A stretch of 64,000 bases of DNA. It comes from Pseudomonadota bacterium. Lineage in GTDB: Bacteria > Pseudomonadota > Alphaproteobacteria > UBA828. Below are positions 4,811 to 29,615 of this stretch, piece after piece. The stretch covers positions 1 through 64,000 of the forward strand of contig JAQBTG010000004.1 of NCBI GenBank assembly GCA_027624955.1, written 5' to 3'. The notes below the pieces were generated by a model that was given only the letters and a program-made list of their open reading frames with translations, was not told the DNA's origin and searched no databases. Both the position numbers and the translations under genes were made by a program. The number at the start of each line of letters is the position of its first letter. Position 1 is the stretch's first letter.

Positions 4811-4868
4811 TAATCGCCGCTAATCGCCGCTAATCGCCGCTAATCGCCGCTAATCGCCGCTAATCGCC
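4811..4868. repeat. Tandem decamer repeat TAATCGCCGC
   Basis: Five exact copies of TAATCGCCGC plus a partial sixth, running from 4811 to 4868. The array crosses the stop codon of the asmA-like gene at 4860-4862: read on the minus strand the last codons and the stop come from the partial unit. Copy-number change by slippage would alter the 3' untranslated end. Confidence 0.9.
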
Positions 4869-7800
4869 AATGATATCGAACACGCCTTTCAAAATATCCG
4901 TTGGTGACAGCGGGTCGTCTTTTGCGCGCTCCGGGGCGGGCGCCGGCGCTGGTGCGGGCGCCCGCTCGGTGTGGCTTTCGCCTTGTTGAGGGGCGAGGCC
5001 CGGCGGTTCCGCTCCGTTTTTTTGTGGCGCCAGGCTGGTCGCTTCCGAGCCGTCTGTTTGCGGCGCGAGCGCCGGTGCGGACTGTTCGGTTGGCGGCTGC
5101 GCGGGGGCTGGTGCGTCATCGTCGGGATCGCCGAATATGCCGCGCAGCAATGTGTCCTCGATCGAACCGGGCTCGGCTTTGGCGCCCTTGCGCAGTTTGG
5201 GTACGACCAGTTTGCCGATTGATGTTTTGGCGATGCGCTTGATCAGATAGGCCTGCATCTCGGAGATCAAAAGTTCGCGCGCTGGGTTGTCGATGGCGCC
5301 GGTCATCCGAACGCCCACCGGCGGGGCTTTGGGATGGTCGGTGAGGTCAAAGAGGGCGATGAGATCGAGCTGCCAGGACGGCAAATCGGCGGTGCCGCGA
5401 ATATCTCCGCGACCGCCATCGGCGAGGACAACAAGGTCATTGGTGGTCGCCAGGCCGTCCCTGATCTGGACGGTACCGTCGAGCGAATCGAGCCGGGTGG
5501 TGCCGCCTGAGAGTCCGGAATCCGCCAAACCGAGAAAATCGGTGGGATCGTTGAGCTCACCCAACCGGTCACTCAGGACGCGCAGATCCACGCCCTCGAC
5601 CGTGCCGTTGCCGGCGCGCAATGTGGCGTCGCCTTGTAAGGCGCGGACCAAATCATATTCGCTGTAGCCTGCGCTGGTGAGGCGGCCATTAACACTGGCC
5701 CGCCCGGTGACGGCTTCGGTTTGCGCGGCCTCGCGCAGCGCTTGGGCCATGTCTATGCCGTCGAGCTTGAAGGCGAGGCTGGCTTGCGGCGGTTGGGCGT
5801 CGGCAACGCGGCCCTCGGCCTCCAACAGGCCGTCGAACAGGCGCCCGCGCAACGAGTCGATCTCGAGCGCGCCGCCGGCAACACGGAGTTTTAACTCAGC
5901 CTGATCAAAGCGGTAGCCGCCGGCTAGAATGGCTTCCGCCTGCACGGATATGTCGGCCTCGATTTCAGCTAGCGGCGAAAGGTCGAATGGCTCACGCGAC
6001 CATTGTCCCGCTTGGCGTTGCGCGGCCGGTGCTGTGCTTTGAGCAGCGGAGTTGGAATCGGATGTTGCCGTAGCGCCGCCGCTGGATTCAGCCGCATTGG
6101 CTTGATCGCCGCCGGCCGAACTGCTGCCGACAAAGAGGCCGGCGTCGAGCAGGCCGGCTTGCAGATTGGCGTGCAGGACCGGCACCGGGCCGCCCAGCAT
6201 AATTTCTGCCGCGCCGGCGATATGGGTCTTGCCGATGGCGAGGCTGAGGTCGGAAATTGCCGCCGAGTTTGCGTCGCCCGCCAGGCGGCCCTTGATGCGC
6301 ACCTCGCCGGCATCTTCGCCTTCATAGGCGGCGCCGCTCAGCAGTTCGGCCAAGGTGGCGAAGCTCGGATTGTCGAGATCGAACACCAAGTCATAACGTC
6401 CGCCTTGTTCGCCTTGTCCGCCCGTGGAAAAATCCGCGAGATTGCCGGCGACTTGCAAATGATTGCCGGCGGCGCGTGCGGAGAGGCTCATATTGAGCGC
6501 CTCAAGGCTGCCATCGAGGCCACCATCGAGCGCGAGCGCACCCAGCCGGTGGGCCAGTTTGGGCGGTGTCATATCGGCGGCGCGCAGCAGTTCCGCCGTG
6601 TCCGGTGCGCGCAGTTCCAGGCCAAAATTGAGGACCGCATTGTCGAGCGGCGTGGCGATGCTTCCGATCAGCGACAGTTTAGCTGGCCGGGTATCGAGCC
6701 GGGCGTTCAAATTGACCGAGTCACGCCCACCGGAGAGGACGCCCGACAGGCTGACCGCGCCCAAATTGTCAGTGCTGAAGTTGGGCGTGATGCCGGCGAC
6801 GCGAATCAAGCCGAGAATCGAATCGGCTTTGGCGTCAAAATTGAGCGTGACATCCGGCTCGCCGGCCGGGTCGCGTATCTCGCCATTTATCGCCAGCTTG
6901 GCGCCGGAAAGATCGGATATTTCAAGACGCTGCACAGTAAGGATTTTGTCTGAGAGAACGCTTTCGAGGGTAACGCCTGACAGAATAGCGCCGCCATAAC
7001 TGAGGCGGCCGACAGTCATTTTCAATGTGGCGTTCAGCGTGTCGAGAACGGCCAGCGCGCTGCCACCCGACGTGACAGACGGTGCGGCGGCCTCGGCGCC
7101 GCCGCTTGCGGATTCCGTCGCTGTCTCGGTGCCCCCGTCCGGGGCGGCATCGCCTTGTCCGGCGTTTGCCGTGGCGGTCAGATAGGCGTCCGCGTTGAGG
7201 TTGTCCAAGTGCAGATTGGCGTCCAGGACGTTGGGCGTTCCAAGCGCGAAATTGGCGTAGCCCTGCAGGCGCGAGGCGTCGATACGGAGATCGAGCGCTG
7301 ACAGCTCGCCGCCAGTTGCGTCCGCGCTCAGGCCGGCGGTTAGGCTGAAACGCCGCAAACGGTCGGCTGGGAGGTCCGACGCATTGAGAAGGTCGAGCCA
7401 GGAAATAAACGCCCGGACATCGTCGGATGCCATGTCCACTTGACCGTCGAAGCGCGCGCCGCTCTCGGACGGCGATATTTGGCCGAACAGAGCGACATTG
7501 CTGCCGCCCGGCAGCAAGGCGGTGGCCTGTTGAATGGTGATGACACCTTCGTCGAGCGACAGGACGGCATGCGCCTGTTGCACCACGCCGTCGAGATAGC
7601 GCAGCGTCTGAACTTCGAGGTCAATCGAGGCAGCGAGATCGGTTGGCAGCATCGCCAGATAAACATCGATCGCAGTTTCCCGGGCGGCGTCTTGTGCGCC
7701 GCCGTCCGCGCGGCCTTCGCTGCTCTCGCTGCCGGCCGCCCCAGTTTCACCGGTCGCTATTTGATTTGTCTCCTCGGTACCGCGAGCCGCCGCGCCGTTT

Positions 7801-8831
7801 TCGGTGATTTTATCGAGATCGAAGCGGTTTATTTTAATCTCCGCGTCGAGCCGATCCGGAGCCCCGGTCAGATAGGCGATGGCGCCGTTGGCTTGTGTCT
7901 CGCCGAGGCGAATTTGTAGGTCATCGAGGGTCAGGCCGGTCTCTGAAAGCACGGTCTCGGCTTTTAGCGAGAAATTGTCAGAGGCGAGCGATTGCGCGCC
8001 GTCGACGCCCATCGCTGCGGCCAAAGCCGCCAGGTCCGGCCCCGACGCCCGCAGGGTTCCCGATCCATCGCTGCCGGCGTCGCGGACGAATATCTTGCCT
8101 TCGAAACCGAGCTGCGCCAAATCTTCGCCTAACTCGATTTTAAGCGAGACCGGCATATGTCCGTCATCGCGCTTGCGTCCGCTGGCGATCTGAAATGACG
8201 TTTCGAGGCCGCGCACTTCTAGACTGCCATCGCCACGAAACGGCCCGTCCAGAGATTTGGCGGAGAGCGAGCCGTTGAGGCGCTGGAAATATTCAACCGT
8301 ATCAGCGGTGCTATCGCGGTAGATGATGGTGCCGTTCTGAATTGACACCGAATCCAAGCTTATCGCGGTTGCGTCTTCTCCTCCGGCGTCGCCCGGCGTG
8401 TCGCCGTCCCCGCCAGTAGCGCCGGCCGCGGCCGCGTCGCCCGGGAGCGGCGTGAAAAGCCAGTTTGTACGCCCGTCCGCTAGGCGCTCCATCTCGATCA
8501 CGGGATCGATCAAGGTAAGGCTGGAAACCTGAATATCGCCGGATATGAGTGGCCCCAAGGCCAGCCGGAGGTCAAGCGCCTGAAGGCGCGCCATATCAGC
8601 GCTCTTGGCACCCTCCAAATTGGATAAACGCGCGTCCGAAATGCGCAATTTGGGGCTGGGCAGGAGGGCAATATCGATATCCCCGTCGATCGATAATTGA
8701 CGTCCGGTTAGGGCTTCGATGCGCTCGGTAATTTCGGGTTTATAGCTGTTCCAGTCGATGAAGCTGGGCACCACAAACGCCGCGACGACCACCAAGACAA
8801 TGAAGGCGAGTACGCCATAAAGAATTTTCAT
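4860..8831 (-). CDS. AsmA-family envelope protein (1323 aa)
   Basis: Large inner-membrane-anchored protein of the AsmA/TamB-like group, thought to bridge the periplasm and help move phospholipid to the outer membrane. Residues 1-25 form one hydrophobic segment, followed directly by the AsmA N-terminal signature (PSFIDWNSYKPEI, then a TGRQLSIDGDI-like motif). The body has repeated beta-rich segments; the C-terminal AsmA-like part lies near residues 960-1190. Several Ala/Ser/Gly-rich linkers occur (about 355-385, 560-590, 915-945). The tail after about 1240 is Pro/Ala-rich with three LAPQ-type repeats, before a short conserved-looking end (PTDILKGVFDIIGD). It stands alone, upstream of glnA in the same direction. 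Confidence 0.88.
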   Translation of the reverse strand: MKILYGVLAFIVLVVVAAFVVPSFIDWNSYKPEITERIEALTGRQLSIDGDIDIALLPSPKLRISDARLSNLEGAKSADMARLQALDLRLALGPLISGDIQVSSLTLIDPVIEMERLADGRTNWLFTPLPGDAAAAGATGGDGDTPGDAGGEDATAISLDSVSIQNGTIIYRDSTADTVEYFQRLNGSLSAKSLDGPFRGDGSLEVRGLETSFQIASGRKRDDGHMPVSLKIELGEDLAQLGFEGKIFVRDAGSDGSGTLRASGPDLAALAAAMGVDGAQSLASDNFSLKAETVLSETGLTLDDLQIRLGETQANGAIAYLTGAPDRLDAEIKINRFDLDKITENGAAARGTEETNQIATGETGAAGSESSEGRADGGAQDAARETAIDVYLAMLPTDLAASIDLEVQTLRYLDGVVQQAHAVLSLDEGVITIQQATALLPGGSNVALFGQISPSESGARFDGQVDMASDDVRAFISWLDLLNASDLPADRLRRFSLTAGLSADATGGELSALDLRIDASRLQGYANFALGTPNVLDANLHLDNLNADAYLTATANAGQGDAAPDGGTETATESASGGAEAAAPSVTSGGSALAVLDTLNATLKMTVGRLSYGGAILSGVTLESVLSDKILTVQRLEISDLSGAKLAINGEIRDPAGEPDVTLNFDAKADSILGLIRVAGITPNFSTDNLGAVSLSGVLSGGRDSVNLNARLDTRPAKLSLIGSIATPLDNAVLNFGLELRAPDTAELLRAADMTPPKLAHRLGALALDGGLDGSLEALNMSLSARAAGNHLQVAGNLADFSTGGQGEQGGRYDLVFDLDNPSFATLAELLSGAAYEGEDAGEVRIKGRLAGDANSAAISDLSLAIGKTHIAGAAEIMLGGPVPVLHANLQAGLLDAGLFVGSSSAGGDQANAAESSGGATATSDSNSAAQSTAPAAQRQAGQWSREPFDLSPLAEIEADISVQAEAILAGGYRFDQAELKLRVAGGALEIDSLRGRLFDGLLEAEGRVADAQPPQASLAFKLDGIDMAQALREAAQTEAVTGRASVNGRLTSAGYSEYDLVRALQGDATLRAGNGTVEGVDLRVLSDRLGELNDPTDFLGLADSGLSGGTTRLDSLDGTVQIRDGLATTNDLVVLADGGRGDIRGTADLPSWQLDLIALFDLTDHPKAPPVGVRMTGAIDNPARELLISEMQAYLIKRIAKTSIGKLVVPKLRKGAKAEPGSIEDTLLRGIFGDPDDDAPAPAQPPTEQSAPALAPQTDGSEATSLAPQKNGAEPPGLAPQQGESHTERAPAPAPAPAPERAKDDPLSPTDILKGVFDIIGD

Positions 8832-16527: not shown

Positions 16528-16875
16528 ATGACGGTGACGATCTATCACAATCCGCGCTGTTCGAAATCACGCCAGACCTTGCAATTATTGCGCGACAACG
16601 GCGTCGAGCCGGAAATCGTCGAATATTTGAAGGCGCCGCCGAGCGCGTCCGAGATCAAGAATATTCTCGCCATGCTGAAAATGGCGCCGCGCGACTTGAT
16701 GCGCAAGAAAGAGGCACCCTATGGCGAACGTGGCCTGGCCGATGAAAGCCTCTCGGAGCTGGAGCTGATTGAAGCGATGCGGGCTGAACCAGTATTGATC
16801 GAGCGGCCAATCGTCGTCAGCGGCGGCAACGCAGCGCTCGGCCGCCCGCCCGAAAACGTCCTGACGCTGCTTTGA
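16528..16875 (+). CDS. arsC: Arsenate reductase, glutaredoxin-coupled type
   Basis: 115-aa ArsC-family reductase, which turns arsenate into arsenite using glutathione/glutaredoxin. The nucleophilic Cys11 lies in HNPRCSKSR, and arginines that bind the oxyanion are visible in LMRKKEAPY, ERPIVV and LGRPPENV. The start ATG follows GAAGAGG. No arsenite efflux gene or ArsR regulator is nearby, so a broader role in redox or as a Spx/YffB-like protein cannot be excluded, but the three arginines and ERPIV segment favour ArsC. It is followed closely by the deacetylase-like gene. Confidence 0.87.
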   Translation: MTVTIYHNPRCSKSRQTLQLLRDNGVEPEIVEYLKAPPSASEIKNILAMLKMAPRDLMRKKEAPYGERGLADESLSELELIEAMRAEPVLIERPIVVSGGNAALGRPPENVLTLL

Positions 16876-16910
16876 CGCGGCGCTCCGCGCCTTCGAATTC
16901 AAGCAAACCC

Positions 16911-17855
16911 ATGCTGCCTGCCATCGTCTTTCATCCCGATTACACCGTGCCGCTGCCGCCGGGCCACCGCTTCCCGATTGGTAAATTCGGCCGCATCAAG
17001 GAATTGTTGCTGGCCGATGGGGCGATCCACCACGACGCGCTGCGCCGGCCCGAGCCGGTGACGGAAGCGCAGCTTCGCCAGGCCCATACGCCCGAATATG
17101 TCGCGACGATACTGGGCCTTACGCTCGACAAGAAGGCCGAGCGTCGCCTGGGGTTACCGCTTTCTGCAGCCTTGGTGCGGCGCGGGCGCGCCGCTGTTGG
17201 CGGCACCCTCCTAACAGCCCGCCTCGCCCTGGAAGAAGGTCTTGCCTGCAATGTCGCTGGCGGTAGCCATCATGCCTTTCCCGGTCAAGGCGCAGGGTTT
17301 TGCATCTTCAACGACGTGGCGGTGACGATTACTGTGCTCCGCCGCGAAGCAACAATTCAAAAGGCGCTGGTGATTGATTGCGATGTGCATCAGGGCGACG
17401 GCACGGCGGCATTTTTCCAGAACGAGCCGGACGTTTACACATTTTCGCTGCACTGCGAGGCCAATTATCCGCACGTCAAGGAAGTCAGCGATTTGGATAT
17501 CGGTGTGCCGGCGGGTACTGGCGATGCCGTGTATCTTTCGGTGGTCGAAAGCCATGTCGGGCCGCTCCTCGACAGGCACCGGCCCGACATTGTTTTTTAC
17601 AACGCCGGCGTGGACCCGCATCAACAAGACAAGCTGGGCAAGCTGGCGCTGAGCGATGCCGGGCTGCGCGCCCGCGATGATCACGTCATAGAAAGTTGCC
17701 TGCGACGCGGCGTCGCATTGGCCTGTGTCGTCGGCGGCGGCTATGCCGATGATCTCGATGTCCTTGCCCGGCGCCATGGCATCCTGCACCGTGCCGCCAC
17801 GGCGGCGTTCGCGGCGCGCACCCAGCACGCAACAAACCGGGAGAAAGCGATATGA
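16911..17855 (+). CDS. Histone deacetylase-family amidohydrolase
   Basis: Zinc hydrolase of the HDAC/AcuC/acetylpolyamine amidohydrolase superfamily, about 314 aa. Active-site motifs are GGSHHAFPGQGAGFC (His pair), IDCDVHQGDGTA (zinc-binding Asp and His), a second Asp in NAGVDPHQQD and the Tyr loop GGGYADD. Substrates in bacteria include acetylated polyamines and acetyl-lysine proteins; which one applies here cannot be told. I chose the ATG at 16911 (MLPAIVFHPDY); a TTG at 16872 overlapping the arsC stop would add 13 residues without similarity to the family. The stop overlaps the next gene as ATGA. Confidence 0.88.
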   Translation: MLPAIVFHPDYTVPLPPGHRFPIGKFGRIKELLLADGAIHHDALRRPEPVTEAQLRQAHTPEYVATILGLTLDKKAERRLGLPLSAALVRRGRAAVGGTLLTARLALEEGLACNVAGGSHHAFPGQGAGFCIFNDVAVTITVLRREATIQKALVIDCDVHQGDGTAAFFQNEPDVYTFSLHCEANYPHVKEVSDLDIGVPAGTGDAVYLSVVESHVGPLLDRHRPDIVFYNAGVDPHQQDKLGKLALSDAGLRARDDHVIESCLRRGVALACVVGGGYADDLDVLARRHGILHRAATAAFAARTQHATNREKAI

Positions 17856-18883
17856 AAGCGGCAGTAATCCATGACTATGGCCAGGGCTTCGACACCATTA
17901 AATATGAAGACGTGCAAACCCCGGTGCCGGGCAGCGGCGAACTGCTGATCAAAGTGCATGCCAACGCGGTTAATCATTGCGATACCGATTTGCGCAAGGG
18001 TCTGTTCGGCGTTGCCAGCTCGATGCCGCATGTGATGGGCGTCGATGCGGTCGGCGAAGTCGTGCATGTCGGCGACGGGGTAACCCAGTTTAAACCGGGA
18101 GACCGTGTCGCACCGCATTTTATGCTGACCTGCGGCGTTTGCCGTGACTGCATCGACGGCAAGGAAAATCTCTGCGCCAATGCCGACGTGCTCGGGGTCA
18201 CGGTGTGGGGCGGCTACGCTGAATACCTCAAATGCGGCCAGAATCATGTCGTGCGTATTCCCGACGGGCTTTCCTGGGTTGATGCAGTGGCCGGGCAAGT
18301 GCCCTTCGCCACAGCTTGGGAGGCGCTGGTGGAGGTCGCAAAAACCCGCGTTGGCGAAACTGTGCTGGTGACGGCGGCGGGCGGCGGAGTCGGCTCGGCC
18401 GGGGTGCAAATCGCTAAATTATCAGGCGCGCGCGTGATCGCTGCGGCGGGCGATGACGGCAAGCTGGAGCGCGCCCGCGAGCTCGGTGCGGACGAAGTTA
18501 TCAATTACCAAAAAGAGCATATCGGCGAAGCTGCACGGGCGCTCACCGGCGGGCGCGGCGTGGATGTGTGCCTGGAGATGATCGGCGGTGGTATTCTTGT
18601 GCAGTCAGTCGATGCATTGGCAGCGGGCGCGCGCTTGGCGACGATCGGCGCGCATGGCGGCGAGCAGGTCAATCTCGATTTTGTCGAGTTCTTCCGCAAG
18701 CATATCAGCGTGCATGGCTGCGGCCGTTCGACCAAGGCACAGGTCGAACGGGTGCTTGACCTCATGGCGCGCGGCAAGTTGAAGCCGGTGGTCCACAAAA
18801 CATTTGGCCTCGATGAAGCGGCGGCGGCGCATGAGGTGATGGAAAGCCGAAATTTCTTTGGCCGTATGGTGTTGACGCGCTGA
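17852..18883 (+). CDS. Zinc-type alcohol dehydrogenase-like oxidoreductase (MDR)
   Basis: 343-aa medium-chain dehydrogenase/reductase. The structural-zinc cysteines are present (CGVCRDCIDGKENLC, about residues 92-106). The catalytic-zinc region is altered: the first Cys is there (NHCDTD), but the usual GHE motif reads HVMGVDAVG. The nucleotide-binding motif AAGGGVGSAGVQIAK is at about 172-186. NADPH-dependent quinone- or enoyl-reductase chemistry is therefore possible. The start overlaps the stop of the deacetylase gene (ATGA), so the two are translationally coupled. The substrate is unknown. Confidence 0.85.
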   Translation: MKAAVIHDYGQGFDTIKYEDVQTPVPGSGELLIKVHANAVNHCDTDLRKGLFGVASSMPHVMGVDAVGEVVHVGDGVTQFKPGDRVAPHFMLTCGVCRDCIDGKENLCANADVLGVTVWGGYAEYLKCGQNHVVRIPDGLSWVDAVAGQVPFATAWEALVEVAKTRVGETVLVTAAGGGVGSAGVQIAKLSGARVIAAAGDDGKLERARELGADEVINYQKEHIGEAARALTGGRGVDVCLEMIGGGILVQSVDALAAGARLATIGAHGGEQVNLDFVEFFRKHISVHGCGRSTKAQVERVLDLMARGKLKPVVHKTFGLDEAAAAHEVMESRNFFGRMVLTR

Positions 18884-19039
18884 CGCTGAGGGTGAACGCA
18901 ACACGCGGCATCTTTCGGCGGCGCTTCCTGTGCGGCGCGCGCGGTTATCGCGGCGGCAGCCGAAGCAAATGTGAGATGGAGGAAGAGGCGCGATATGCGC
19001 TCCTTGAGTCCTCCAGGCGAAGGCGGCCAGCGGAGTAGG

Positions 19040-19597
19040 TTAGCGCTGTTTGACGTGCGTCCGAGTGTCCAAGCCGACGGCCATCCCAAATCCCTCGCGC
19101 GCAATGCCGTTGGCGGCGCCTTCTAGGGTTGCGAGCAGACTCCGCAGAAGGTGAGATTCTTCGGCGGACAATCCCGCCAACAGCTTCGCTTCATAGGCCC
19201 GTGCCACGGGCACGACCTGGGAATAAATTTCTAGACCTTCCTCGGTGGCATACAGTTCGCTGCGCCGGCGGTCGCGCTTATCTGAGCGCCGGTCAATGCG
19301 TTCCAATTCCAGCAGGCGGGAGACAGCGCGGCTGACGCGCACTTTGTCCATCGCCGCCAATTCGCAAACGGCGTTGCTTGAAACGCCGGGGTAGCGCGAG
19401 ATCACCGCCAGCACGCGCCAATCGGATACGGTGAGGCCGAAGCGCACTGAATAGAGCCTCGCCAAGCCGCGGCTGACGAGGTTGGAAAGCGTTGCCAATC
19501 GGTCGACCATCAGGACCGGTACGTCGACATCGGCGCTGGAATAGCCATTGTCATGCGCCAAACTGGCAGCGCCGGTCTTTAGAAGTTTCGTGGACAT
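19040..19597 (-). CDS. MarR-family transcriptional regulator
   Basis: 185-aa winged-helix regulator. The helix-turn-helix lies at about residues 65-100 (GVSSNAVCELAAMDKVRVSR) and the wing follows as DKRDRRRSEL. Start taken at 19597 (MSTKLL), the first start consistent with family length; the ribosome-binding site is weak. It is divergent from the FAA-hydrolase/monooxygenase pair across a 208-base gap, the usual arrangement for a MarR protein controlling a catabolic operon and itself. The ligand is presumably an aromatic or similar acid substrate of that operon, which is inference. Confidence 0.87.
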   Translation of the reverse strand: MSTKLLKTGAASLAHDNGYSSADVDVPVLMVDRLATLSNLVSRGLARLYSVRFGLTVSDWRVLAVISRYPGVSSNAVCELAAMDKVRVSRAVSRLLELERIDRRSDKRDRRRSELYATEEGLEIYSQVVPVARAYEAKLLAGLSAEESHLLRSLLATLEGAANGIAREGFGMAVGLDTRTHVKQR

Positions 19598-19672
19598 CCG
19601 GTTAGGTTCTCTTACATGATGTTTGGGGGCTTCTATTTGAGTATGTATGCATCGTTCGCCTGATAATCGACC

Positions 19673-19705
19673 CTTGCGCAGCGTTCGCAAGTGACAGAGA
19701 TCACA
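19673..19705. promoter_or_regulatory. Candidate operator and CRP/FNR-like site
   Basis: Two adjoining dyads lie in the gap between the divergent marR and FAA-hydrolase genes. CTTGCG-N7-CGCAAG (19673-19691) is a perfect inverted repeat suited to a dimeric regulator such as MarR. It abuts AGTGA-N6-TCACA (19690-19705), one base from the symmetric CRP/FNR-family consensus TGTGA-N6-TCACA. Confidence 0.45.
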
Positions 19706-19805
19706 CTGACGAAAATAGATTAATCGCCATGCTTATCTTCCCATCAGATTCCTGAGCAGTCCGCCGGGTAATTTGTTGCGAAAACTGGGGTAAGGACATG
19801 CCAAG

Positions 19806-20792
19806 ATGAAACTCGCTTCGCTTAAGTCAGACAGCCGCGACGGCAGCTTGGTTGTCGTCGACCGTGCCCTGAAACGCGCCGTATCTGCGGCGGCGCTGGC
19901 GCCCAGCTTGCGCGCCGCGCTCGACGATTGGGACACGGTGGCGCCCGGCTTGAAGGCCTTGTCTGATGATTTGGAAGGGGGGCGCGTAGCCGAGAGCTTC
20001 GCCCTCGATTTTACCGCGTTGACCGCGCCGCTGCCGCGCGCCGCGCAGTTTCTTGATGCCAGCGGCTATCTCAACCATATCGAGTTGGCGCGGCGTGCAG
20101 TTGGCGACAGCCTGCCCGATACACTGGAGACCGATCCCTTGATGTATCAGGGTGCGTCCGAGCCGCTTGGCGGCCCGCGCGATCCGATCCTCGCGGCGGA
20201 TGAATCCTGGGGCATCGATTTTGAAGCCGAATCGGCGGTCATCACCGGCCCGGTCGCGATGGGCGCAAATGCCGAGGAAGCCGGACGTAGCATTCGCTTG
20301 ATCTTGCTAGTGAATGATGTTTCAGCGCGCCGCTTGGTGCCGGCGGAACTGGCCAAGGGCTTTGGCTTTATCCATGGCAAGCCGCCCACCGCTTGCTCGG
20401 CCGTGGCGCTCACGCCGGACGAGTTGGGCGCGGCGTGGGACGGTGCGCGTTTGCACGGCCGGCTGGTGAGCACGCTCAACGGTGACCTGATCGGCGATCC
20501 CGATTGCGGCGTCGAGATGCATTTCAGCTTTCCGCAATTGCTGGCCCATGCCGCGCGGACGCGCGCCCTCGGCCCCGGCACGCTGTTGGGCTCGGGCACG
20601 GTGTCCAACAGCGATCGTGCGCGCGGCTCGTCCTGCTTGCTGGAGCGGCGAATGATTGAGAAGGTGGACAAGCTCAAGCGCCACACAGAATTGATGCGCT
20701 TCGGGGACGTCATCTATATCGACATGACGGACGCGGACGGCCACAGCATTTTCGGTGCTATCGAGCAAAAAATGGAAAAGGTGATGTCATGA
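19806..20792 (+). CDS. Fumarylacetoacetate hydrolase-family protein
   Basis: 328-aa member of the FAH superfamily, which cleaves or hydrates beta-diketo and related acids of aromatic catabolism with a divalent metal. Seen in the sequence: DFEAESAVITGPV (metal-ligand region, about residues 138-150), LVNDVSARRL, and the C-terminal GPGTLLGSGTVSN loop near 255-268. The start follows a GGTAAGGAC site. The 3' end overlaps the next gene by 4 bases. The pairing with a flavin-type monooxygenase and a MarR regulator suggests a short ring-cleavage or ketoacid degradation operon; the exact substrate is not evident. Confidence 0.88.
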   Translation: MKLASLKSDSRDGSLVVVDRALKRAVSAAALAPSLRAALDDWDTVAPGLKALSDDLEGGRVAESFALDFTALTAPLPRAAQFLDASGYLNHIELARRAVGDSLPDTLETDPLMYQGASEPLGGPRDPILAADESWGIDFEAESAVITGPVAMGANAEEAGRSIRLILLVNDVSARRLVPAELAKGFGFIHGKPPTACSAVALTPDELGAAWDGARLHGRLVSTLNGDLIGDPDCGVEMHFSFPQLLAHAARTRALGPGTLLGSGTVSNSDRARGSSCLLERRMIEKVDKLKRHTELMRFGDVIYIDMTDADGHSIFGAIEQKMEKVMS

Positions 20793-21802
20793 AATCCAGT
20801 CTCGTCTATTCGATGCACGGCTTTGAATATAACGATCCGGTGCGGACATACCGGGAAACCGTCGAGCAAATTCAACTGGCGGAATCGCTTGGCTTCGATG
20901 CGGCGTTGATTTGTGAGCATCATCTTGTCGAGACCGGTTTCTTTCCCGCGCCGTTGATCGTCTGCGCTGGGTTGGCGGCGGAGACCTCGCGCATTCGCAT
21001 CGGCACCGGCGTGTTGCTGCTGCCGCTTTACGATCCGCTCCATGTGGCCGAGCATGCCGCGATGGTCGACATCGTATCGAACGGCCGGTTCATTCTCGGC
21101 GTCGGCTATGGCTACCGCGAAGAGGAATTTGCCGGCTTCGGCATTCCCTTGGCGGAACGCGCCTCACGCTTGACCGAAGGCATCCAGGCGCTGCGAGCCC
21201 TGTGGACTGAGGACGTCACGAATTTTTCGGGCAAGCACTATAAGTATCAAAACGCGACGCAGCGCCCATTGCCCGTGCAGAAGCCGCATCCGCCGATTTG
21301 GCTAGCTGCGAAGGCAGAAGGCGCGGTGCGCCAGGCGGCGCGCATTGCCGACGCCTGGTTCGCCGATCCGGTAACGCCGTTCTCGGTCCTGAAGCAGCGC
21401 TTGGCGGCCTATCAGGAGACCTCGCAAAAGATCGGCAAGCCGACAACCGGAGTCGAATTTCCGGTGTTCCGCGAAGCCTTTGTTGCCGAGACCGATGATG
21501 CTGCCTGGGCCGCGGCCAAGGAGGGCGTGCTATATATTTACAAAGAATATCTCGAGTGGGGCCATTTGCTCGACGAGGACGGTCGCCCGGTTCCGCCCGA
21601 TTCGCCCGATGCGCTCGAAATGTTGCGTAAACGTTTCATCATCGGCAGCCCGGAGACGTGCATTCGCCATGCCGAGAGGGTTAAACAGGAACTCGGCTGC
21701 ACCAACTTGGTGATACGCACGAAATTCCCCGGCATATCGCAGGATAAAGTTCTGAACTCGATCAAATTATGGGGTGAAGAGGTGCTTCCGGCGATTGCGT
21801 GA
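20789..21802 (+). CDS. Luciferase-like (LLM) flavin-dependent oxidoreductase
   Basis: 337-aa bacterial-luciferase-like monooxygenase with the TIM-barrel landmarks of the family: ICEHHLVETGFFP (about residues 43-55), IRIGTGVLLLPLYDPLHVAEHAAMVD (first part about 71-84), GRFILGVGYGYREEEF, and PVQKPHPPIWLAAKAEGA. Such enzymes use reduced FMN or F420 and oxygen to oxygenate or desulfonate organic substrates. It is translationally coupled to the FAA-hydrolase gene by an ATGA overlap and is probably regulated by the divergent MarR. Confidence 0.88.
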   Translation: MKSSLVYSMHGFEYNDPVRTYRETVEQIQLAESLGFDAALICEHHLVETGFFPAPLIVCAGLAAETSRIRIGTGVLLLPLYDPLHVAEHAAMVDIVSNGRFILGVGYGYREEEFAGFGIPLAERASRLTEGIQALRALWTEDVTNFSGKHYKYQNATQRPLPVQKPHPPIWLAAKAEGAVRQAARIADAWFADPVTPFSVLKQRLAAYQETSQKIGKPTTGVEFPVFREAFVAETDDAAWAAAKEGVLYIYKEYLEWGHLLDEDGRPVPPDSPDALEMLRKRFIIGSPETCIRHAERVKQELGCTNLVIRTKFPGISQDKVLNSIKLWGEEVLPAIA

Positions 21803-22078
21803 GAAGGTGACTCAAGGCGACCTAACGAATTTCTTGCCATGACGCGAGCTGAAGCGCCGACGTGACATCGGCGGTAAACGGGTACGTGGCAAATAACCCG
21901 AGGGCCGTCGCTTCGTACCGTGCAAGACTGCGCATGGTAGGCAACAGCGCCACGCTTGGGCATATCTGCGATCGTGAATTGGGTGCCGTGTCATAGCAAG
22001 CGCTTCTGGTTGCACGGCTTGGCCTCGAAAGGCTAGCATCCCTCGCTTGCGGTTCCTGCAACGAATTGAGAACGCTTT

Positions 22079-22843
22079 ATGAATTGCTTGGCGTGTGGCG
22101 CGGAGACGCCCGTCGACAACCGCTTTTGCGGCGCCTGTGGCGCACCCCAGGTAATTGCCTGCTCGAGCTGCGGCACGGAAAATCCGGCGGCCAACAAATA
22201 TTGTGGCGGATGCGGCGCGCCGTTGCACGGCCAGCCCGAATTGAAAGCTGCGGCGGCGGCGAAATCCACGCCGACGGAGCCCGAGAAAAATGCTCCCGAC
22301 GCGCAAAAGGCGCCCGAGGCCGAAGCCGAGCGCCGCCAGCTCACGGTGATGTTCTGCGATCTGGTGGGCTCGACCGCACTGTCAGGCCAGCTCGATCCAG
22401 AAGATTTGCGCGAAGTGATGCAGGCCTACCGGGAGACCTGCGCCGCGATGATTGAGCGTTTCGACGGCTATGTGGCGAAATACCTTGGTGACGGCGTGTT
22501 GGCCTATTTTGGCTATCCGCGCGCTCATGAAGAGGACGCCGAACGCGCGGCGCGGGCCGGCGTGGCGATCCTTGAGGCGATGGCTGATTTGAGTGCGAAG
22601 CAGGGCGCGCGTGTTGCCGCGCCGCTTGAAACCCGCATCGGCATCGCCACCGGCCTGGTGGTGGTCGGAGACATGGGTAGCGGCGACACGCGCGAGAGCA
22701 TGTCGGTGATGGGCGAGACGCCCAATATCGCCGCCCGCTTACAGGCTCTGGCAGACCCTGGACAGATCGTGGTGGGCGCGTTGACGCGCCGCCTGATCGG
22801 CTCGGCTTTCGCGTTTGAGGGGATCTCGGCGAGCGTGAGCTAA
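22079..22843 (+). CDS. Zinc-ribbon class III cyclase, first half of a frameshifted gene
   Basis: The first 50 residues hold two zinc ribbons (CLACGAETPVDNRFCGACG and CSSCGTENPAANKYCGGCG). A class III adenylate/guanylate cyclase domain follows at about 80-250: VMFCDLVGSTALS with the metal-binding Asp, RFDGYVAKYLGDGVLAYFGYP with the second Asp, and VMGETPNIAARLQALA. The frame stops at 22841-22843 right after FAFEG. In the other frame, from 22823, the sequence continues as DLGERELKGVALPLRAF, exactly the family's continuation. A G run at 22819-22822 is thus one base short (or two too long). The gene is either a sequencing artefact, a pseudogene, or decoded by frameshift or restart. Confidence 0.9.
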   Translation: MNCLACGAETPVDNRFCGACGAPQVIACSSCGTENPAANKYCGGCGAPLHGQPELKAAAAAKSTPTEPEKNAPDAQKAPEAEAERRQLTVMFCDLVGSTALSGQLDPEDLREVMQAYRETCAAMIERFDGYVAKYLGDGVLAYFGYPRAHEEDAERAARAGVAILEAMADLSAKQGARVAAPLETRIGIATGLVVVGDMGSGDTRESMSVMGETPNIAARLQALADPGQIVVGALTRRLIGSAFAFEGISASVS

Positions 22844-22848
22844 AAGGC

Positions 22849-25800
22849 GTGGCGCTGCCGCTACGCGCCTTTGCGGTGCGTTCCGAAGAGGGCGCCACGG
22901 TGGAACAGACGGCCGAAGATGCGCCGCTGTTGGGGCGCGAAGTGGAAATGGCGCGCCTCGAAACATGCTGGCGCGAGGTCAAGGACGGACACGGCCAAAT
23001 AGCGCACATCTCCGGCGAGCCCGGCATTGGCAAATCGCGCCTCATGCGGGCGCTCCGCGATATCGTCGCGGCGGATGGCGGCGCCTGGATCGAATGCTAC
23101 GGCTCGCCCTATCATGGCAGCACGCCGTTCCATCCGCTGATCGAATTGCTGCGTAGCTCGGCCGGGCTGGCGCGCAGCGACGCGCCGGAGGCGCGTCTGC
23201 GCAAGCTGGAAGCGCTGATGGCGCGGCTCGCTCTCGATGCGGCGGAGCACCTGCCGATAGTGGCGGCACTGCTGTCGCTTGAAGATGTCGGCAGCTACGC
23301 TGCGCCGGAGCTCAGTCCGCGCGCCTTGAAAGAAAGAACCCTCGCCACCATCTCGGCGTTTCTCACCGCCATCGCCGCGCAGCAGCCGGCTGTGATGGCG
23401 CTCGAGGACTTGCACTTGCTCGACGCCTCGTCCTTGGAAATGCTGGATTTGCTGAGCGTCGAGATCAAGGATCTGCCGATCATGCTGGTGACCAGCCAGC
23501 GCAGTGAGTTTAACCATCTCTGGCCGAAAAATGCGGTGGCGGCCGCCGACTTGGCGCTCAAACGGCTCGACAGTGATGCCAGCGCCGCGTTGATCGCGCA
23601 TATCGCCGGTGACAAGAAACTATCCGACGATGTCAGCGCGCAAATCATTGTGCGCACCGACGGTATTCCTTCTTTCATCGAGGAAGTGACAAAGACCATC
23701 CTCGAAGCCGGCGTTCTACGCGAGCGCAAAGGGCGTTATGAAGCTAAAGGCTCTGTACCGGAACGTTTGATACCGGAAACTCTCAAGGATTCGCTGATGG
23801 CGCGGCTCGACAGCCTCGCCGACGCCAAGGAGTTGGCCCAGATCGGCGCCACCATCGGGCGCAGTTTCACTCATGAGCTGATCGAAGCGGTGGCCAAAAC
23901 CGAGGCGGCGCTGCTGGTCGCCAATCTCGGCACGCTCAATGCCTCCGGCCTTATCGAGACTTTTGGCGAAGCGCCGAATGCGATTTACAGCTTTAAGCAG
24001 GCCCTGGTGCAGGAGGCGGCCTACGAAACCCTGCTGCGCCAGCGCCGGCAAAATTTTCACGAGCGGATTGCCCAGGCGCTCGAGGCGTCGTTCCCCGAAA
24101 TCGTCGCCGCCCAGCCGGAATTGTTGGCGCATCATTACGGTGTCGCCGGGCGTAACAGAAGCGCCACCCAATATTGGATGCAGGCGGGCGCCCGGGCGCG
24201 CAAGCGGTCGGCCGAGATCGAGGCAATCGAGCATTTCAGCATGGCGTTGGAACTTCTCGACAAGGCGCCCGAATCAGCCGAGCGCACGGCGCAGGAGCTG
24301 ACCTGCTGGACGGCGCTTGGCCAGGCCCATCTCATCACTCAAGGCTATGCCGCCGAGGAAACCCACGCCGCCTTCGAAAAAGCATATGAGCTGAGCGGAC
24401 ATGTCAAAGATCTGCAGCAGCAATTCCTCAGCGCCTGGGGCATTCTCGCTTATCACTTTATACGTGGCGATATGGCGCGTGCGCTTGAGCTCAGTGATGA
24501 ATCGATTAAGCGCGCCGAGGCCTCGGGCAATCAGAGCTTCCGCGCCGTTGCGCTCGGCAGCCGCGGCATCATCCTGCATTCGCTCGGCGAATTCGAACGT
24601 TCGGCGGATCAGGTCAAGCGTGGCTTGGCGCTGTACGGGCCGGAAGCACAGGAGGAGATGGCGCGCTTGTTCGGCCTCGACGTCGCCGTCTTGAGCACCG
24701 CCTATGGCGGGCGCAGCCAGTGGATCCGGGGCTATCCCGATCAGGCTCTGGAAATGGTGGAGCGTTCCGTCACGCTGGCGCGCGAGCGCGGGCGACCGTT
24801 CGATCTGGCGACGGCGCTTTCAACCGGCACAGGCTATGCGCGCCTATTGCGCGGCGAGGTCAGCGAGACGCGCAAATGCGCCATCGAAACCATCGAGATT
24901 TCCGAAGCGCATCATTTTCCGTATCTTCATGCGCGCGGCCTGATCGAGCTCGGCTGGTGTCATTTGCAGGAAGGCGACATACAACTCGGCATCGAGCGGC
25001 TCGAGGAAGGCATCGCCAAATTCCGCGCGACCGGCGCGCTCACCACCATGCCGGCGGCGCAGGTGCTGCTGGCCGAAGCGCTCGGCGCATCGGGGCAGGC
25101 CGAGGAGGGCTTGCGGGTGATTGACGAAGCGCTTGCCTATATCAATGAAAGCGGAGAGCGCGATAGCGAAGCCGAATTGCACCGCATTCGCGGCGTTCTG
25201 CATCTCGCCAGCGGCACCGATAATGCGGCGCAGGCGGAGGTCAGTTTCAACAAGGCGCTGGAGGTCGCGCGTGCACAGAAGGCGCGCTCCTGGGAGCTGC
25301 GCGCGGCGACGGCGCTGGCCCGCCTCTATCACGATAGCGGGCGCACGGAAGAAGCGCGTGACCTTTTGGGCCCGCTCTACGCCTGGTTCAAGGAGGGGTC
25401 GGAGAGCGCCGATCTGAGAGCCGCGCGGGCGCAGTTGGAACTGCTCGCAGCGACGGTCCGCGACGGTGACAAGGTGCGCATTCACTACACCATCCGCTCA
25501 GAAAGCGGCAAGATGCTCGACCGCACGAGATCCTCAAGCCCGGCTGAAGTGACGGTTGGCGGCGGCGAATTGCTGCAGGTGGTAAGCCAAGCCCTGATCG
25601 GCATGGTGCCGGGCGGCAAAACGACGCTCACGCTGACCCCGGCGTTGGCGTTCGGCGAGCGCGACGAAGACCGCATGATCCATGTCCCGCGCGCTTCTGT
25701 GCCGGAACAGGCGAAGGCGGGCGATATTTTCACGATCCAGCATGACGGCCAGTCCGTGTTGATCACGGTGCTTGAGATCGAGGATGATTTCGCCACCTGC

Positions 25801-25881
25801 GACCTTAACCATCCGTGGGCCGGCCAGACCTTGAGTTACGAGATTAAGCTGCAGAAGATTTTGCCAGGCGGCAGAGGCTAG
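22849..25881 (+). CDS. AAA-type ATPase, TPR and SlyD-like FKBP domains, second half of the same gene
   Basis: 1010-aa continuation of the cyclase gene in a different frame. A GTG at 22849 preceded by AAAAGG could allow restart six bases after the stop of the first half. Domains: ATPase with Walker A GEPGIGKSR (about residues 55-63) and Walker B VMALEDLHLLD (about 181-191), as in guanylate-cyclase/LuxR-type signalling ATPases; a helical TPR array (about 450-865); and at about 870-1008 a FKBP domain of SlyD type (RIHYTIRSESGKMLD, LIGMVPGGKTTL, AFGERDEDRMIHVPR, then DLNHPWAGQTLSYEI). The aromatic/IPG active-site residues of active FKBPs are partly replaced. The cyclase-ATPase-TPR order is common; the C-terminal FKBP is not. 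A terminator follows. Confidence 0.9.
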   Translation: MALPLRAFAVRSEEGATVEQTAEDAPLLGREVEMARLETCWREVKDGHGQIAHISGEPGIGKSRLMRALRDIVAADGGAWIECYGSPYHGSTPFHPLIELLRSSAGLARSDAPEARLRKLEALMARLALDAAEHLPIVAALLSLEDVGSYAAPELSPRALKERTLATISAFLTAIAAQQPAVMALEDLHLLDASSLEMLDLLSVEIKDLPIMLVTSQRSEFNHLWPKNAVAAADLALKRLDSDASAALIAHIAGDKKLSDDVSAQIIVRTDGIPSFIEEVTKTILEAGVLRERKGRYEAKGSVPERLIPETLKDSLMARLDSLADAKELAQIGATIGRSFTHELIEAVAKTEAALLVANLGTLNASGLIETFGEAPNAIYSFKQALVQEAAYETLLRQRRQNFHERIAQALEASFPEIVAAQPELLAHHYGVAGRNRSATQYWMQAGARARKRSAEIEAIEHFSMALELLDKAPESAERTAQELTCWTALGQAHLITQGYAAEETHAAFEKAYELSGHVKDLQQQFLSAWGILAYHFIRGDMARALELSDESIKRAEASGNQSFRAVALGSRGIILHSLGEFERSADQVKRGLALYGPEAQEEMARLFGLDVAVLSTAYGGRSQWIRGYPDQALEMVERSVTLARERGRPFDLATALSTGTGYARLLRGEVSETRKCAIETIEISEAHHFPYLHARGLIELGWCHLQEGDIQLGIERLEEGIAKFRATGALTTMPAAQVLLAEALGASGQAEEGLRVIDEALAYINESGERDSEAELHRIRGVLHLASGTDNAAQAEVSFNKALEVARAQKARSWELRAATALARLYHDSGRTEEARDLLGPLYAWFKEGSESADLRAARAQLELLAATVRDGDKVRIHYTIRSESGKMLDRTRSSSPAEVTVGGGELLQVVSQALIGMVPGGKTTLTLTPALAFGERDEDRMIHVPRASVPEQAKAGDIFTIQHDGQSVLITVLEIEDDFATCDLNHPWAGQTLSYEIKLQKILPGGRG

Positions 25882-25898
25882 AAACTGCAGTAAAAGGC

Positions 25899-26008
25899 CC
25901 TTCTGCCCCGGCGGGGAGGAAGGGTTTGGCTTGGCGGGGCGAACTTTGCGCGCGCCGCGCGCTTTGAATCCCCCTCTCCCCAGCCCTCTCCCCTTGGGAG
26001 AGGGTTTT
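25899..26008 (-). repeat. Dispersed palindromic repeat, copy 2 (includes a terminator)
   Basis: Reverse-complement copy of the element at 4665-4778, lying between the convergent cyclase/ATPase and acyl-CoA synthetase genes. It contains a hairpin at 25901-25923, the box TTGGCGGGGCGAAC, a central GCGCGCGCCGCGCGC palindrome and a second hairpin CCCTCTCC/GGGAGAGGG (25984-26004) followed by TTTT, which can act as a rho-independent terminator for the plus-strand gene. Confidence 0.78.
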
Positions 26009-26040
26009 GTAACGTTAGGAATTTGCGACGGTCCAACTTA

Positions 26041-27627
26041 CTAAAACAAATCCTTCAACCGGTTCTTCTGTAATTTCCCGGTACTGGTCAGCGGTAAATC
26101 CGCGGCAGTTACGAATTTTACCCGGCGCGGTACTTTATAGACGGCGAGGGTTTCACGGCAGAGGGCGAGCAAGGTTTCAGCCGCGACTTCGTCCCGCGCG
26201 ACGATCACCGCGGCGACGATTTCGTCACGCCGGGCGTCCTTGAGGCCGATGACATAGGCGAGTTCTACCGCCGGATGGCCGATCAGCACTTCTTCGATTT
26301 CGGCGGGCGACACGTTGATGCCGCCGGTCTTGATCATCTCTTTGGTGCGGCCGCGGAAGTAGAGATAGCCGTCAGCATCGAAAAAGCCGAGATCGCCGGT
26401 GCGGAAATAACCGTCCGCATCGAACGCTTCGGCGGTTTTCTCCGGGTCTTTGTAATAGCCCGGCGTGACATAGCCCTTGAGGCGAATTTCGCCAGTTTCG
26501 CCTTGCGGCAATAGGCGGCCCGTCTCCATGTCTGCGATGATGATATCATTGCCGGGAAGCGGCCTGCCGATGGTCTCTGTGCGCAGCGCCAGGCTGTCAT
26601 GGGCGTCGTTGGCCGTACAATTTCCATAGGTTTCGGTAAGGCCATAAACCTGGCAGACCTCAGGTACGCCCAGATTGGCGAGGCCACGAATCTGTTCGGG
26701 CGAACCGATGGTCGCGCCAGTGCGGAGCGACGAAAGATCGCGCCCGGCACAGTCGGGATGTTCTTCCAGTGCCAGGGTCATGTTGGGCGTGCCGTAAAAA
26801 ACGCTGCAGCGTTCGGCCTCGATTAAACGCAGCGCTTCGCCGGCGTCGAAATGCTCCTGCAATACGATACAGGCGCCGTGCGTCCAGACGGCAAACAGCG
26901 CGTTTTCGCAGCCCAATCCCCAAAAGAGCGAGACCGCCAGCCAGAGGCGATCATCCGGCACCAGGTGCAAGCGCTCGCCAATGCCCCACATATTTTCGAT
27001 CAAGGCGAAATGCTGCAACAGCACGCCTTTGGGCAGCGCTGTGGAGCCCGAGGTGTAGAGGAGACAGGCGACGTCTTCGCCCTTAACCGCTGCCTGGGCG
27101 GCGTCGATCTCGCTGTCTGGCACATCGACGCCGATGCGCCATAATTCCTCGAACGCGTCCATGCCATCCGGCGGTGCGCCGTCGCGGAGGCAGAAAATTC
27201 GCTCTAGGCCGCTTAAGTCGTATGTGTCGGCACGCGCCTCTTCGATCAGAGCGATGTAATCGCGCTTCAAAAAGCCGGACGACATCAGCAGCATGCGGCA
27301 TTCCGAATGGCTCAGTTGATAGGCGAGCTCGCGCGCCGTCGCCCAGGTGTTGGCCGCCACCATCACGCCGCCCAAAGCCATGATGGCAAAATCGGCGAAC
27401 AGCCATTCAGGGCGATTGCCCATCAGAATGGCAACCTTGTCGCCACGCCTGACGCCGGCGGCGTGGAGGCCCTTGGCCAAAGCCCGGGTGCGGTCGCGAA
27501 ACTCAGCCCAGCTATAACGCTCGGCGCCGCCGACCAGCGCTTCGCGCTCCGGATAGCGCGCCGCCATCTCATCGATCAGCGCCATCCCGGTCTTCGCTTT
27601 TGGCATTTCCATCACAGGGGTGCTCAT
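26041..27627 (-). CDS. AMP-dependent acyl-CoA synthetase
   Basis: 528-aa ANL-superfamily enzyme that activates a carboxylic acid to its CoA thioester through an acyl-adenylate. The phosphate loop LLYTSGSTALPKGV is near residue 190, the GYYKDPEKTAEAFDADGYFRTGDLG region near 400, the hinge GRTKEMIKTGGINVSP near 430, and the catalytic lysine in PLTSTGKLQKN at the end. The acid substrate cannot be deduced. It follows the cyclase-family gene by 10 bases in the same direction, so the two probably act in one pathway. Confidence 0.92.
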   Translation of the reverse strand: MSTPVMEMPKAKTGMALIDEMAARYPEREALVGGAERYSWAEFRDRTRALAKGLHAAGVRRGDKVAILMGNRPEWLFADFAIMALGGVMVAANTWATARELAYQLSHSECRMLLMSSGFLKRDYIALIEEARADTYDLSGLERIFCLRDGAPPDGMDAFEELWRIGVDVPDSEIDAAQAAVKGEDVACLLYTSGSTALPKGVLLQHFALIENMWGIGERLHLVPDDRLWLAVSLFWGLGCENALFAVWTHGACIVLQEHFDAGEALRLIEAERCSVFYGTPNMTLALEEHPDCAGRDLSSLRTGATIGSPEQIRGLANLGVPEVCQVYGLTETYGNCTANDAHDSLALRTETIGRPLPGNDIIIADMETGRLLPQGETGEIRLKGYVTPGYYKDPEKTAEAFDADGYFRTGDLGFFDADGYLYFRGRTKEMIKTGGINVSPAEIEEVLIGHPAVELAYVIGLKDARRDEIVAAVIVARDEVAAETLLALCRETLAVYKVPRRVKFVTAADLPLTSTGKLQKNRLKDLF

Positions 27628-27637
27628 ACCTTGGCGC

Positions 27638-28654
27638 TCATACCGTGGCGACCGGCGTTGCCGGCGAGCCGACCGCTCCCGGCATGCGCAGGGGCGGCGC
27701 TGTGAGGAAGAAGCGCGAACGTCCGTTCTCGCGCAGCCAAGCGGCGAGCTCGCTCAAATGCCAGAGCTCGCCGAGCGGCACGCCAACCTTGAACAGACAA
27801 TGCTCGTGCAGCGGCAAAACCGGGCCGCGCTCGGTCATTTCGCGGGCCACGGAAGAGGATTGCTCGACCGCCACATTATCGGAAATGAGGGCGGCCAGGC
27901 CGCTCCCGCTGATCCAATTGAGGAGTTTCTTATCGCCGCCTTCCAACACCGTACAGATGGCGCCCACAGGTTCGGGATTGGGCGTCGCCGCCGCCGCAAC
28001 GATACGGTCGGCAAAACCGGTATGGAGACAGACGAGATCACCTTCGTGCACCTCAACATCATCTTTTTTCATGATCGCCATAAGCTCGTCATAGCCGACA
28101 GCGCGCCGTTCATCGCCGCAATGGCTGCGCAGGTCGATCATCACGCCGCGCCCTTGAAGGCAGGATTCCGCCATATGCTGAATGCCGAGATTGACCGCGC
28201 CGACTTCGCCATACAGCCCCTCTCCAGCCTCGGACACCACTTTGAAACCGTTGTAATAGACATGCTCGGGCGTGCCGTCGCCATCTGCGTCGAACAATGC
28301 GCCGATATGGGCGAAGCTGTCCCATTGAGTCGAATATTGGCTGTGGATCAACATTGCGTCGTCGCACAGCAGATCGGTTTGCAGGGGATTGTCGCGCCGC
28401 ACTGGACCGTCGAAGGCGATCTCGCCCTCGCGGATGACCGGTTTCAACTCGGGCGGCAGGCGGCTTGGATTGATCGAATTACCGCCCGGCAGGTTGAGCG
28501 GCATACTGAGGCAGAAATTGCGCCCGGTGCGCACTTCTTTCACCGCTTCAAGCACACGGTCCGCGGTTAACAGATTGATGCGGCCCAATTGATCGTCGGG
28601 GCCGAAATCGCCCCAGTTCGAGCCTTCGGGCCGTATCTTCCAACGCTTGTTCAT
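27638..28654 (-). CDS. Cyclase-family metal hydrolase
   Basis: 338-aa protein of the cyclase/kynurenine-formamidase family (PF04199), metal-dependent hydrolases of amides, lactones or ring ketones. The family's HxGTHxDxPxH-type metal site appears in modified form as YSTQWDSFAHIG (about residues 110-121), with GVMIDLRSHCG and EVHEGDLVCLHTGF further on. The start at 28654 is supported by GGGGAGA upstream. It heads a two-gene unit with the acyl-CoA synthetase and is divergent from the SMP-30 gene over a 76-base promoter region. Confidence 0.85.
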   Translation of the reverse strand: MNKRWKIRPEGSNWGDFGPDDQLGRINLLTADRVLEAVKEVRTGRNFCLSMPLNLPGGNSINPSRLPPELKPVIREGEIAFDGPVRRDNPLQTDLLCDDAMLIHSQYSTQWDSFAHIGALFDADGDGTPEHVYYNGFKVVSEAGEGLYGEVGAVNLGIQHMAESCLQGRGVMIDLRSHCGDERRAVGYDELMAIMKKDDVEVHEGDLVCLHTGFADRIVAAAATPNPEPVGAICTVLEGGDKKLLNWISGSGLAALISDNVAVEQSSSVAREMTERGPVLPLHEHCLFKVGVPLGELWHLSELAAWLRENGRSRFFLTAPPLRMPGAVGSPATPVATV

Positions 28655-28730
28655 TTTATCTCCCCAGACGACAGGGCGTGATTATGCCGCAATCGAAGCC
28701 ATGGTACAGTGCGGAAAAGGGGAAATGTGG

Positions 28731-29615
28731 ATGAATGATATTGGCGACGGCGTGACGGTGGCCGCGAATACCGAAGACGTGCTCGGCGAGGTGCCTGTAT
28801 GGGACGCGGACAAGGCATGCCTCTGGTGGACCGACGTGTTCCGTCCGGCGATCCACCGCCTCGATGTGGCAAGCGGCAAGGTAGATAGCTGGACGCCGCC
28901 CGACAAGGTGCATTCGTTTGCGCTGCGGGAAAGTGGTGGGCTGGTGATCGCCGGGCGCAAGGGATTCGCGCTCTATGATCCCGAAAGCGGCGTCTATGAA
29001 CCGTTGCACGATCCGCGCGCAGATACCGAGGGCACGATGCTCAACGATGGCCGTGCCGATCGCCAGGGCCGTTTCTGGGCCGGCACCATGGACAAAATGC
29101 TGAAGCGTCCGTCAGGCCATCTCTATCGTTTGGACACAAACCATAAAAGCCATGCGGCGGCGGACGGCATCACGCTCGCGAACGGCGTTGCCTTCTCGCC
29201 TGACGGACGCACGCTTTATTGCGCCGACAGCTTGCTCAAAAAACTATACGCCTATGATCTAGAGCCCGAGACGGGCGCGCTCTCGAAACGGCGCGTGTTT
29301 GCGAAAACCGCCGCGGTCCCCGGTATCCCCGACGGCGCCACTGTGGACGCAAAGGGCAATCTTTGGAGTGCCCGTTTCGATGGCGGGCGCGTGGTGCGTC
29401 ACGGGCCGGACGGCCATGTGGTGGGGGAGATCCTGTTACCGGTTTCGCGCGTGACCTCCTGTGCGCTCGGCGGCCCCGATCTCAAAACCCTCTATGTGAC
29501 GAGCGCCTTCTTCCGCCTGACAAAAGAACAACGTGCAGCGGAACCGCTTGCGGGCGCGCTATTCGCAGTGGAAGTGGACGTGCCCGGAATTCCGGAGCCG
29601 TACTACCGCGGATGA
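28731..29615 (+). CDS. SMP-30/gluconolactonase (regucalcin)-family lactonase
   Basis: 294-aa six-bladed beta-propeller lactonase. Family marks are the N-terminal metal ligand in LGEVPVWDADKACLWWTD, the NDGRADRQGRFWAGTMD motif near residue 105 and FSPDGRTLYCADS near 150. It hydrolyses sugar-acid or other lactones with a divalent metal. I chose the ATG at 28731, eight bases after AAAAGGGGA; the frame is open further upstream. It is divergent from the cyclase-family gene. The lactone substrate is unknown. Confidence 0.9.
   Translation: MNDIGDGVTVAANTEDVLGEVPVWDADKACLWWTDVFRPAIHRLDVASGKVDSWTPPDKVHSFALRESGGLVIAGRKGFALYDPESGVYEPLHDPRADTEGTMLNDGRADRQGRFWAGTMDKMLKRPSGHLYRLDTNHKSHAAADGITLANGVAFSPDGRTLYCADSLLKKLYAYDLEPETGALSKRRVFAKTAAVPGIPDGATVDAKGNLWSARFDGGRVVRHGPDGHVVGEILLPVSRVTSCALGGPDLKTLYVTSAFFRLTKEQRAAEPLAGALFAVEVDVPGIPEPYYRG

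Follow-up and report, generated by a model that had tools for sequence, protein, structure and literature searches.

A class III nucleotide cyclase signalling gene of uncultured marine Alphaproteobacteria ends in an FKBP domain of SlyD/SlpA type

The layout of cyclase, ATPase and TPR is known from human soluble adenylyl cyclase ADCY10, and the combination of FKBP and TPR in one chain is known from the eukaryotic FKBP51/52, whose FKBP domain is without an insert-in-flap. Among the insert-in-flap FKBPs, SlyD binds extended or partly folded chains (PMC5034536) and SlpA limits aggregation in a manner that depends on the insert-in-flap (PMC11013033). No description of a cyclase-FKBP fusion was found in the literature, in agreement with the original prediction, which was aware of no cyclase reported to carry a tail of this kind. 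Here, a gene with this combination was analysed in a stretch of 64,000 nucleotides (the window). All frames of the span 22079-25881 were translated, and domains were called with the Pfam curated cut-offs. The tail-bearing gene is that of a class III cyclase signalling protein restricted to one genus of uncultured marine Alphaproteobacteria, and as far as was searched cyclase-ATPase-TPR-FKBP is a new domain combination, not a new kind of system. The following features were assigned:

22079..22225, + strand, double zinc ribbon (DZR; PF12773 1.1e-9, residues 3-46), opening frame 1
22334..22801, + strand, class III nucleotide cyclase domain (PF00211 3.4e-20)
22819..22822, + strand, frame break (GGGG versus GG in L014), after which frame 1 stops at TAA 22841-22843
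22849..25881, + strand, second open frame, ATPase-TPR-FKBP, GTG start, 1010 aa
22927..23481, + strand, AAA_16 P-loop ATPase domain with Walker A GEPGIGKS (PF13191 3.7e-22, residues 27-211)
24106..25407, + strand, TPR/alpha-helical repeats, approximate limits (TPR families, 6e-15; modelled helices)
25453..25878, + strand, FKBP domain of SlyD/SlpA type (PF00254; SlpA/SlyD in PDB; Foldseek)
25570..25587, + strand, altered active-site loop LLQVVS (I-P-G-F/L-E in most free-standing relatives)
25657..25827, + strand, insert-in-flap (chaperone-type) region including DLNHPWAG, approximate limits (full-length alignment to SlpA and SlyD)

The matches to DZR, PF00211, AAA_16, TPR and FKBP_C each exceeded the curated cut-off (for PF00211 72.9 bits versus 21.9), and the zinc ribbons, cyclase, AAA-type ATPase and TPRs that had been proposed from the letters were thereby confirmed as domains. 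The cyclase domain has the metal-binding Asp residues (FCDLVG, LGDGV), the substrate Lys (AKYLGD) and the Asn/Arg pair (PNIAARL), and in the alignment to CyaB (3r5g, 5e-23) Thr is replaced by Ser at the second adenine-selecting site. By these residues it qualifies as a class III nucleotide cyclase with putative cAMP/cGMP synthesis. In the predicted structure of the last 375 residues 12 helices follow one another, and the FKBP tail is joined to the last TPR helix through a very short linker, the model at this junction being of low confidence (two aligned sequences). Class III cyclase/AAA_16/TPR proteins share the order of cyclase, P-loop ATPase and TPR with the fused gene and likewise retain the catalytic residues, but the paralogues of this layout that were read have no FKBP tail. 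The nearest NCBIfam model was the TOMM kinase/cyclase TIGR03903, with a score of 430 that stays below its cut-off of 706; this family carries an N-terminal kinase, where the fused gene has zinc ribbons instead. FKBP51/52 have the opposite domain order and neither cyclase nor ATPase, and the likeness to them is superficial only.

The tail itself was assigned by three routes. FKBP_C matched with 2e-12 within the ORF (52.6 bits, cut-off 21.1) and with 5.8e-14 when the tail was used alone. In the PDB the tail alone was closest to SlpA (2m2a/4dt4, 7e-16), followed by FKBP12-IF chimeras and E. coli SlyD (about 3e-11), and these matches to SlyD/SlpA extend through the insert-in-flap region, which is flanked in the tail by AFG and LSY, corresponding to the Ala-aromatic-Gly and Leu-x-aromatic flanks of the insert-in-flap. 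A structure prediction of the tail, suggested earlier as a check, was made from three sequences with moderate confidence (mean pLDDT 68, pTM 0.48), and a Foldseek search of the PDB with this model placed SlyD and SlpA at the top (E about 1e-11, TM 0.6-0.7). Chance similarity to FKBP was ruled out by these E-values and the fold search. The proposed SlyD-type FKBP with a flap insertion was thus upheld, with Pfam FKBP_C, SlpA/SlyD in the PDB and the fold search in agreement. By sequence the tail is closest to SlpA/FkpB (NCBIfam PRK15095, 5.6e-17). It is a relative and not an equivalog, as the score against the SlpA/FkpB equivalog model NF011676 was 61.6 bits with a cut-off of 125. A PHROGs search gave no match. 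E. coli SlpA/FkpB (4dt4, 2m2a) shares about 30% identity with the tail, and both are without a metal-binding extension, but SlpA is a free-standing 16-kDa protein, whereas the tail is fused. SlyD of E. coli and T. thermophilus shares the two-domain plan and Tyr13, Asp23 and His119 with the tail, from which it differs in being free of the signalling protein and in its metal-binding His/Cys-rich C-terminus; the fused chain ends in ...QKILPGGRG, so that the tail is not SlyD in the strict sense.

For comparison of the active site, 30 free-standing alphaproteobacterial relatives were used, with residues numbered as in T. thermophilus SlyD. The Gly of the loop, kept in 27 of these relatives, is replaced by V in both the window and L014 and by A in L013; in place of I-P-G the triplet is LQV in the window and LPV/LPA in L014/L013, and the original prediction that the IPG loop is replaced was correct. 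The following residue (Phe, Leu or Met in the free-standing relatives) is V and the acidic residue of the loop (30/30) is S in the tail, while SlpA has retained both the Gly and the L-E after it. Tyr63, found in 29 of the 30, is F. Tyr13 and Asp23 occur in all 30 relatives, and His119 and Phe128 in 29 each; of these four, Tyr13, Asp23 and His119 are retained in the tail, and Phe128 is replaced by Tyr. The tail differs from SlyD by Y63F, F128Y, I37L and G39V/A. In the T. thermophilus SlyD variants considered from PMC5034536, single substitutions retain 21-98% activity, with values of 76, 78, 50, 84 and 35% for Y63F, D23A, I37G, H119A and F128A. Inactivity of the tail was not concluded, because Tyr13, Asp23 and His119 are retained and single changes leave activity in T. 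thermophilus SlyD. Judged by its residues, the tail is unusual and probably altered as a prolyl isomerase, and prolyl isomerisation is probably a secondary or reduced property of the tail.

The distribution of the tail was assessed at several levels. When 84,980 species genomes were scanned for sequences closely related to the tail, two loci were recovered, L013 (Alphaproteobacteria bacterium MarineAlpha10_Bin2; its sequence starts within the TPR region) and L014 (Rhodospirillaceae bacterium SI073_bin108), and in whole-genome searches the tail was present in three of the six genomes of the genus. No other cyclase-FKBP fusion was found in the order (22 genomes) or class samples, nor among the matches listed for the phylum sample, about 760 Pseudomonadota genomes overall; this tail was the query of these searches, with other FKBPs fused to other cyclases outside their reach. 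The remaining tail matches were short frames typical of free-standing SlyD, and a plasmid search with the tail gave free-standing or unannotated SlyD/FkpB among the matches listed. The window, L013 and L014 have the same TPR-FKBP junction at 86-88% identity, in accordance with the expectation that the fusion should recur in related genomes if it is no local misassembly. The downstream genes are common to the window and L013 and different in L014; the gene is therefore not part of a fixed operon, and its neighbourhood suggests no partner. An assembly artefact in which a cyclase gene was joined to an unrelated slyD/fkpB gene could be considered, as every copy comes from a fragmented draft genome, but one junction at this identity in three genomes, one of them with other neighbours, makes it so very unlikely that misassembly was ruled out.

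Sequence comparison with L014 (NG86) gave dN/dS values of 0.141/0.845 for the cyclase, 0.146/0.681 for the ATPase, 0.105/0.775 for the TPR and 0.100/0.649 for the tail. For the tail, dN was 0.08-0.10 and dS about 0.65 (NG86), a ratio of about 0.1-0.15. All parts of the gene are under purifying selection, and the fusion is real, restricted to the genus and selected. Tailless paralogues stop in the TPR region precisely where the fused protein continues into the tail (...DLKEAKALLDELS). The mean identity of the tail to the 30 free-standing homologues is 0.29-0.31, and that of each homologue to the rest 0.36-0.52. In a tree the three tails group together as one fully supported clade on a long stem, with short inner branches; the tree does not separate the free-standing relatives and points to no donor. 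This history fits the capture of one SlyD/SlpA-type domain, followed by fast change and by constraint since. Only two FKBP_C matches occur in the genome of the window, the tail and a 511-codon protein that is presumably trigger factor, and with no further match the tail is not a spare copy. A free-standing SlyD-like protein from a genome in the same family, L005 (ORF 1261-1926), lies nearest to the tail by path, without firm support, and has a degenerate site with the loop ALPAFE, His for Tyr63 and Tyr for Phe128.

A single polypeptide over 22079-25881, as had been assumed, was not borne out. Instead, the span consists of two frames: frame 1 (22079-22843, 254 residues) encodes the zinc ribbon and cyclase, and the second frame is open from about 22818 for 1020 codons, with its GTG start at 22849, five bases past the stop of frame 1 and preceded by AAAAGG. 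The alignment of the window (GAGGGGATCTC) with L014 (GAGGATCTC) revealed two extra G in the window. The PF00211 match stops at profile position 156 of 183 in the window and at 179 in the orthologue G002:C148; the last strands of the domain are located past the frame break. L014 is uninterrupted at the cyclase-ATPase junction and has its own break at L014:2914-2950, where the stretch between ATPase and TPR lacks about 16 bases. The cyclase-ATPase junction is thus open in L014, the ATPase-TPR junction in the window and the TPR-FKBP junction in all three genomes; the entire chain in one frame was seen in none of the window, L013 and L014.

The breaks in the window and L014 could be errors of draft metagenome assemblies, or they could be recent decay. 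Since dN/dS is low to either side of the break, decay, if it occurred, would have set in recently. The gene might be a recent or incipient pseudogene in the species of the window, and perhaps in that of L014, with the cyclase and the ATPase-TPR-FKBP part separate or dead; this would agree with the observations that both copies that can be judged are broken at different sites and that the frame of a paralogue, G000:C71, stays open for 1112 codons. This is regarded as unlikely, given the low dN/dS, the 1010-codon frame that is still open, the frame of L013 that is open throughout its available stretch, and the indel errors possible in draft metagenome assemblies. Alternatively, two polypeptides might be made, the second restarted at GTG 22849, or both might be joined by a programmed frameshift. 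The closeness of stop and start and the AAAAGG ahead of the GTG are in favour of a restart; however, L014 has no break at that point and the cyclase domain would be deprived of its last strands, which renders this alternative distinctly improbable, and a programmed frameshift at 22819-22822 was rejected, since the RNA structure downstream is not unusual (z = -0.32) and L014 is unbroken there.

The best explanation, to which a probability of roughly 0.45 was assigned, is that the tail was gained at the end of the TPR arm and that its occupancy by clients changes cyclic nucleotide synthesis. Most likely, the tail serves the cyclase's sensor arm as a module for binding clients. The ATPase-TPR arm would act as the sensor that switches the cyclase, the FKBP tail would widen its ligand range and would hold on to protein segments that are extended or partly folded, or to a single dedicated partner, and occupancy of the tail would be passed on as a change in cyclic nucleotide synthesis. 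Sensing of the folding state by the tail is a reasonable inference. The narrower version, in which the cyclase reports the folding state because unfolded or stalled clients on the insert-in-flap/FKBP tail alter cAMP or cGMP via the ATPase-TPR arm, is quite doubtful. A tail that serves as a folding or stability aid or as a docking tag for its own multidomain protein, with no sensing, would be consistent with the chaperone nature of SlpA/SlyD-type insert-in-flap domains (PMC11013033) and with the direct joining to the TPR arm, but paralogues of the same layout in the genus do without it, and this role is judged somewhat unlikely. Should the tail both bind clients and alter the cyclase, the folding state of proteins and a nucleotide second messenger would be directly coupled in bacteria, and the tail would moreover offer a handle on what the poorly understood ATPase-TPR arm senses. 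Even as a docking domain, it would be a case in which a common signalling scaffold acquires a chaperone module, with divergence and then strong constraint.

Class III cyclase matches numbered 19 in the window genome, 26 in G002 and 22 in G003, and only 3 in G005. Within the window the fused gene is located among catabolic-looking genes (16872-29615) of the types deacetylase-like, alcohol dehydrogenase, MarR, FAA hydrolase, luciferase-like monooxygenase, AMP ligase, PF04199 cyclase and SMP-30. Additionally, an AsmA/YhdP-like protein of 1323 aa is encoded on the minus strand at 4860-8831.
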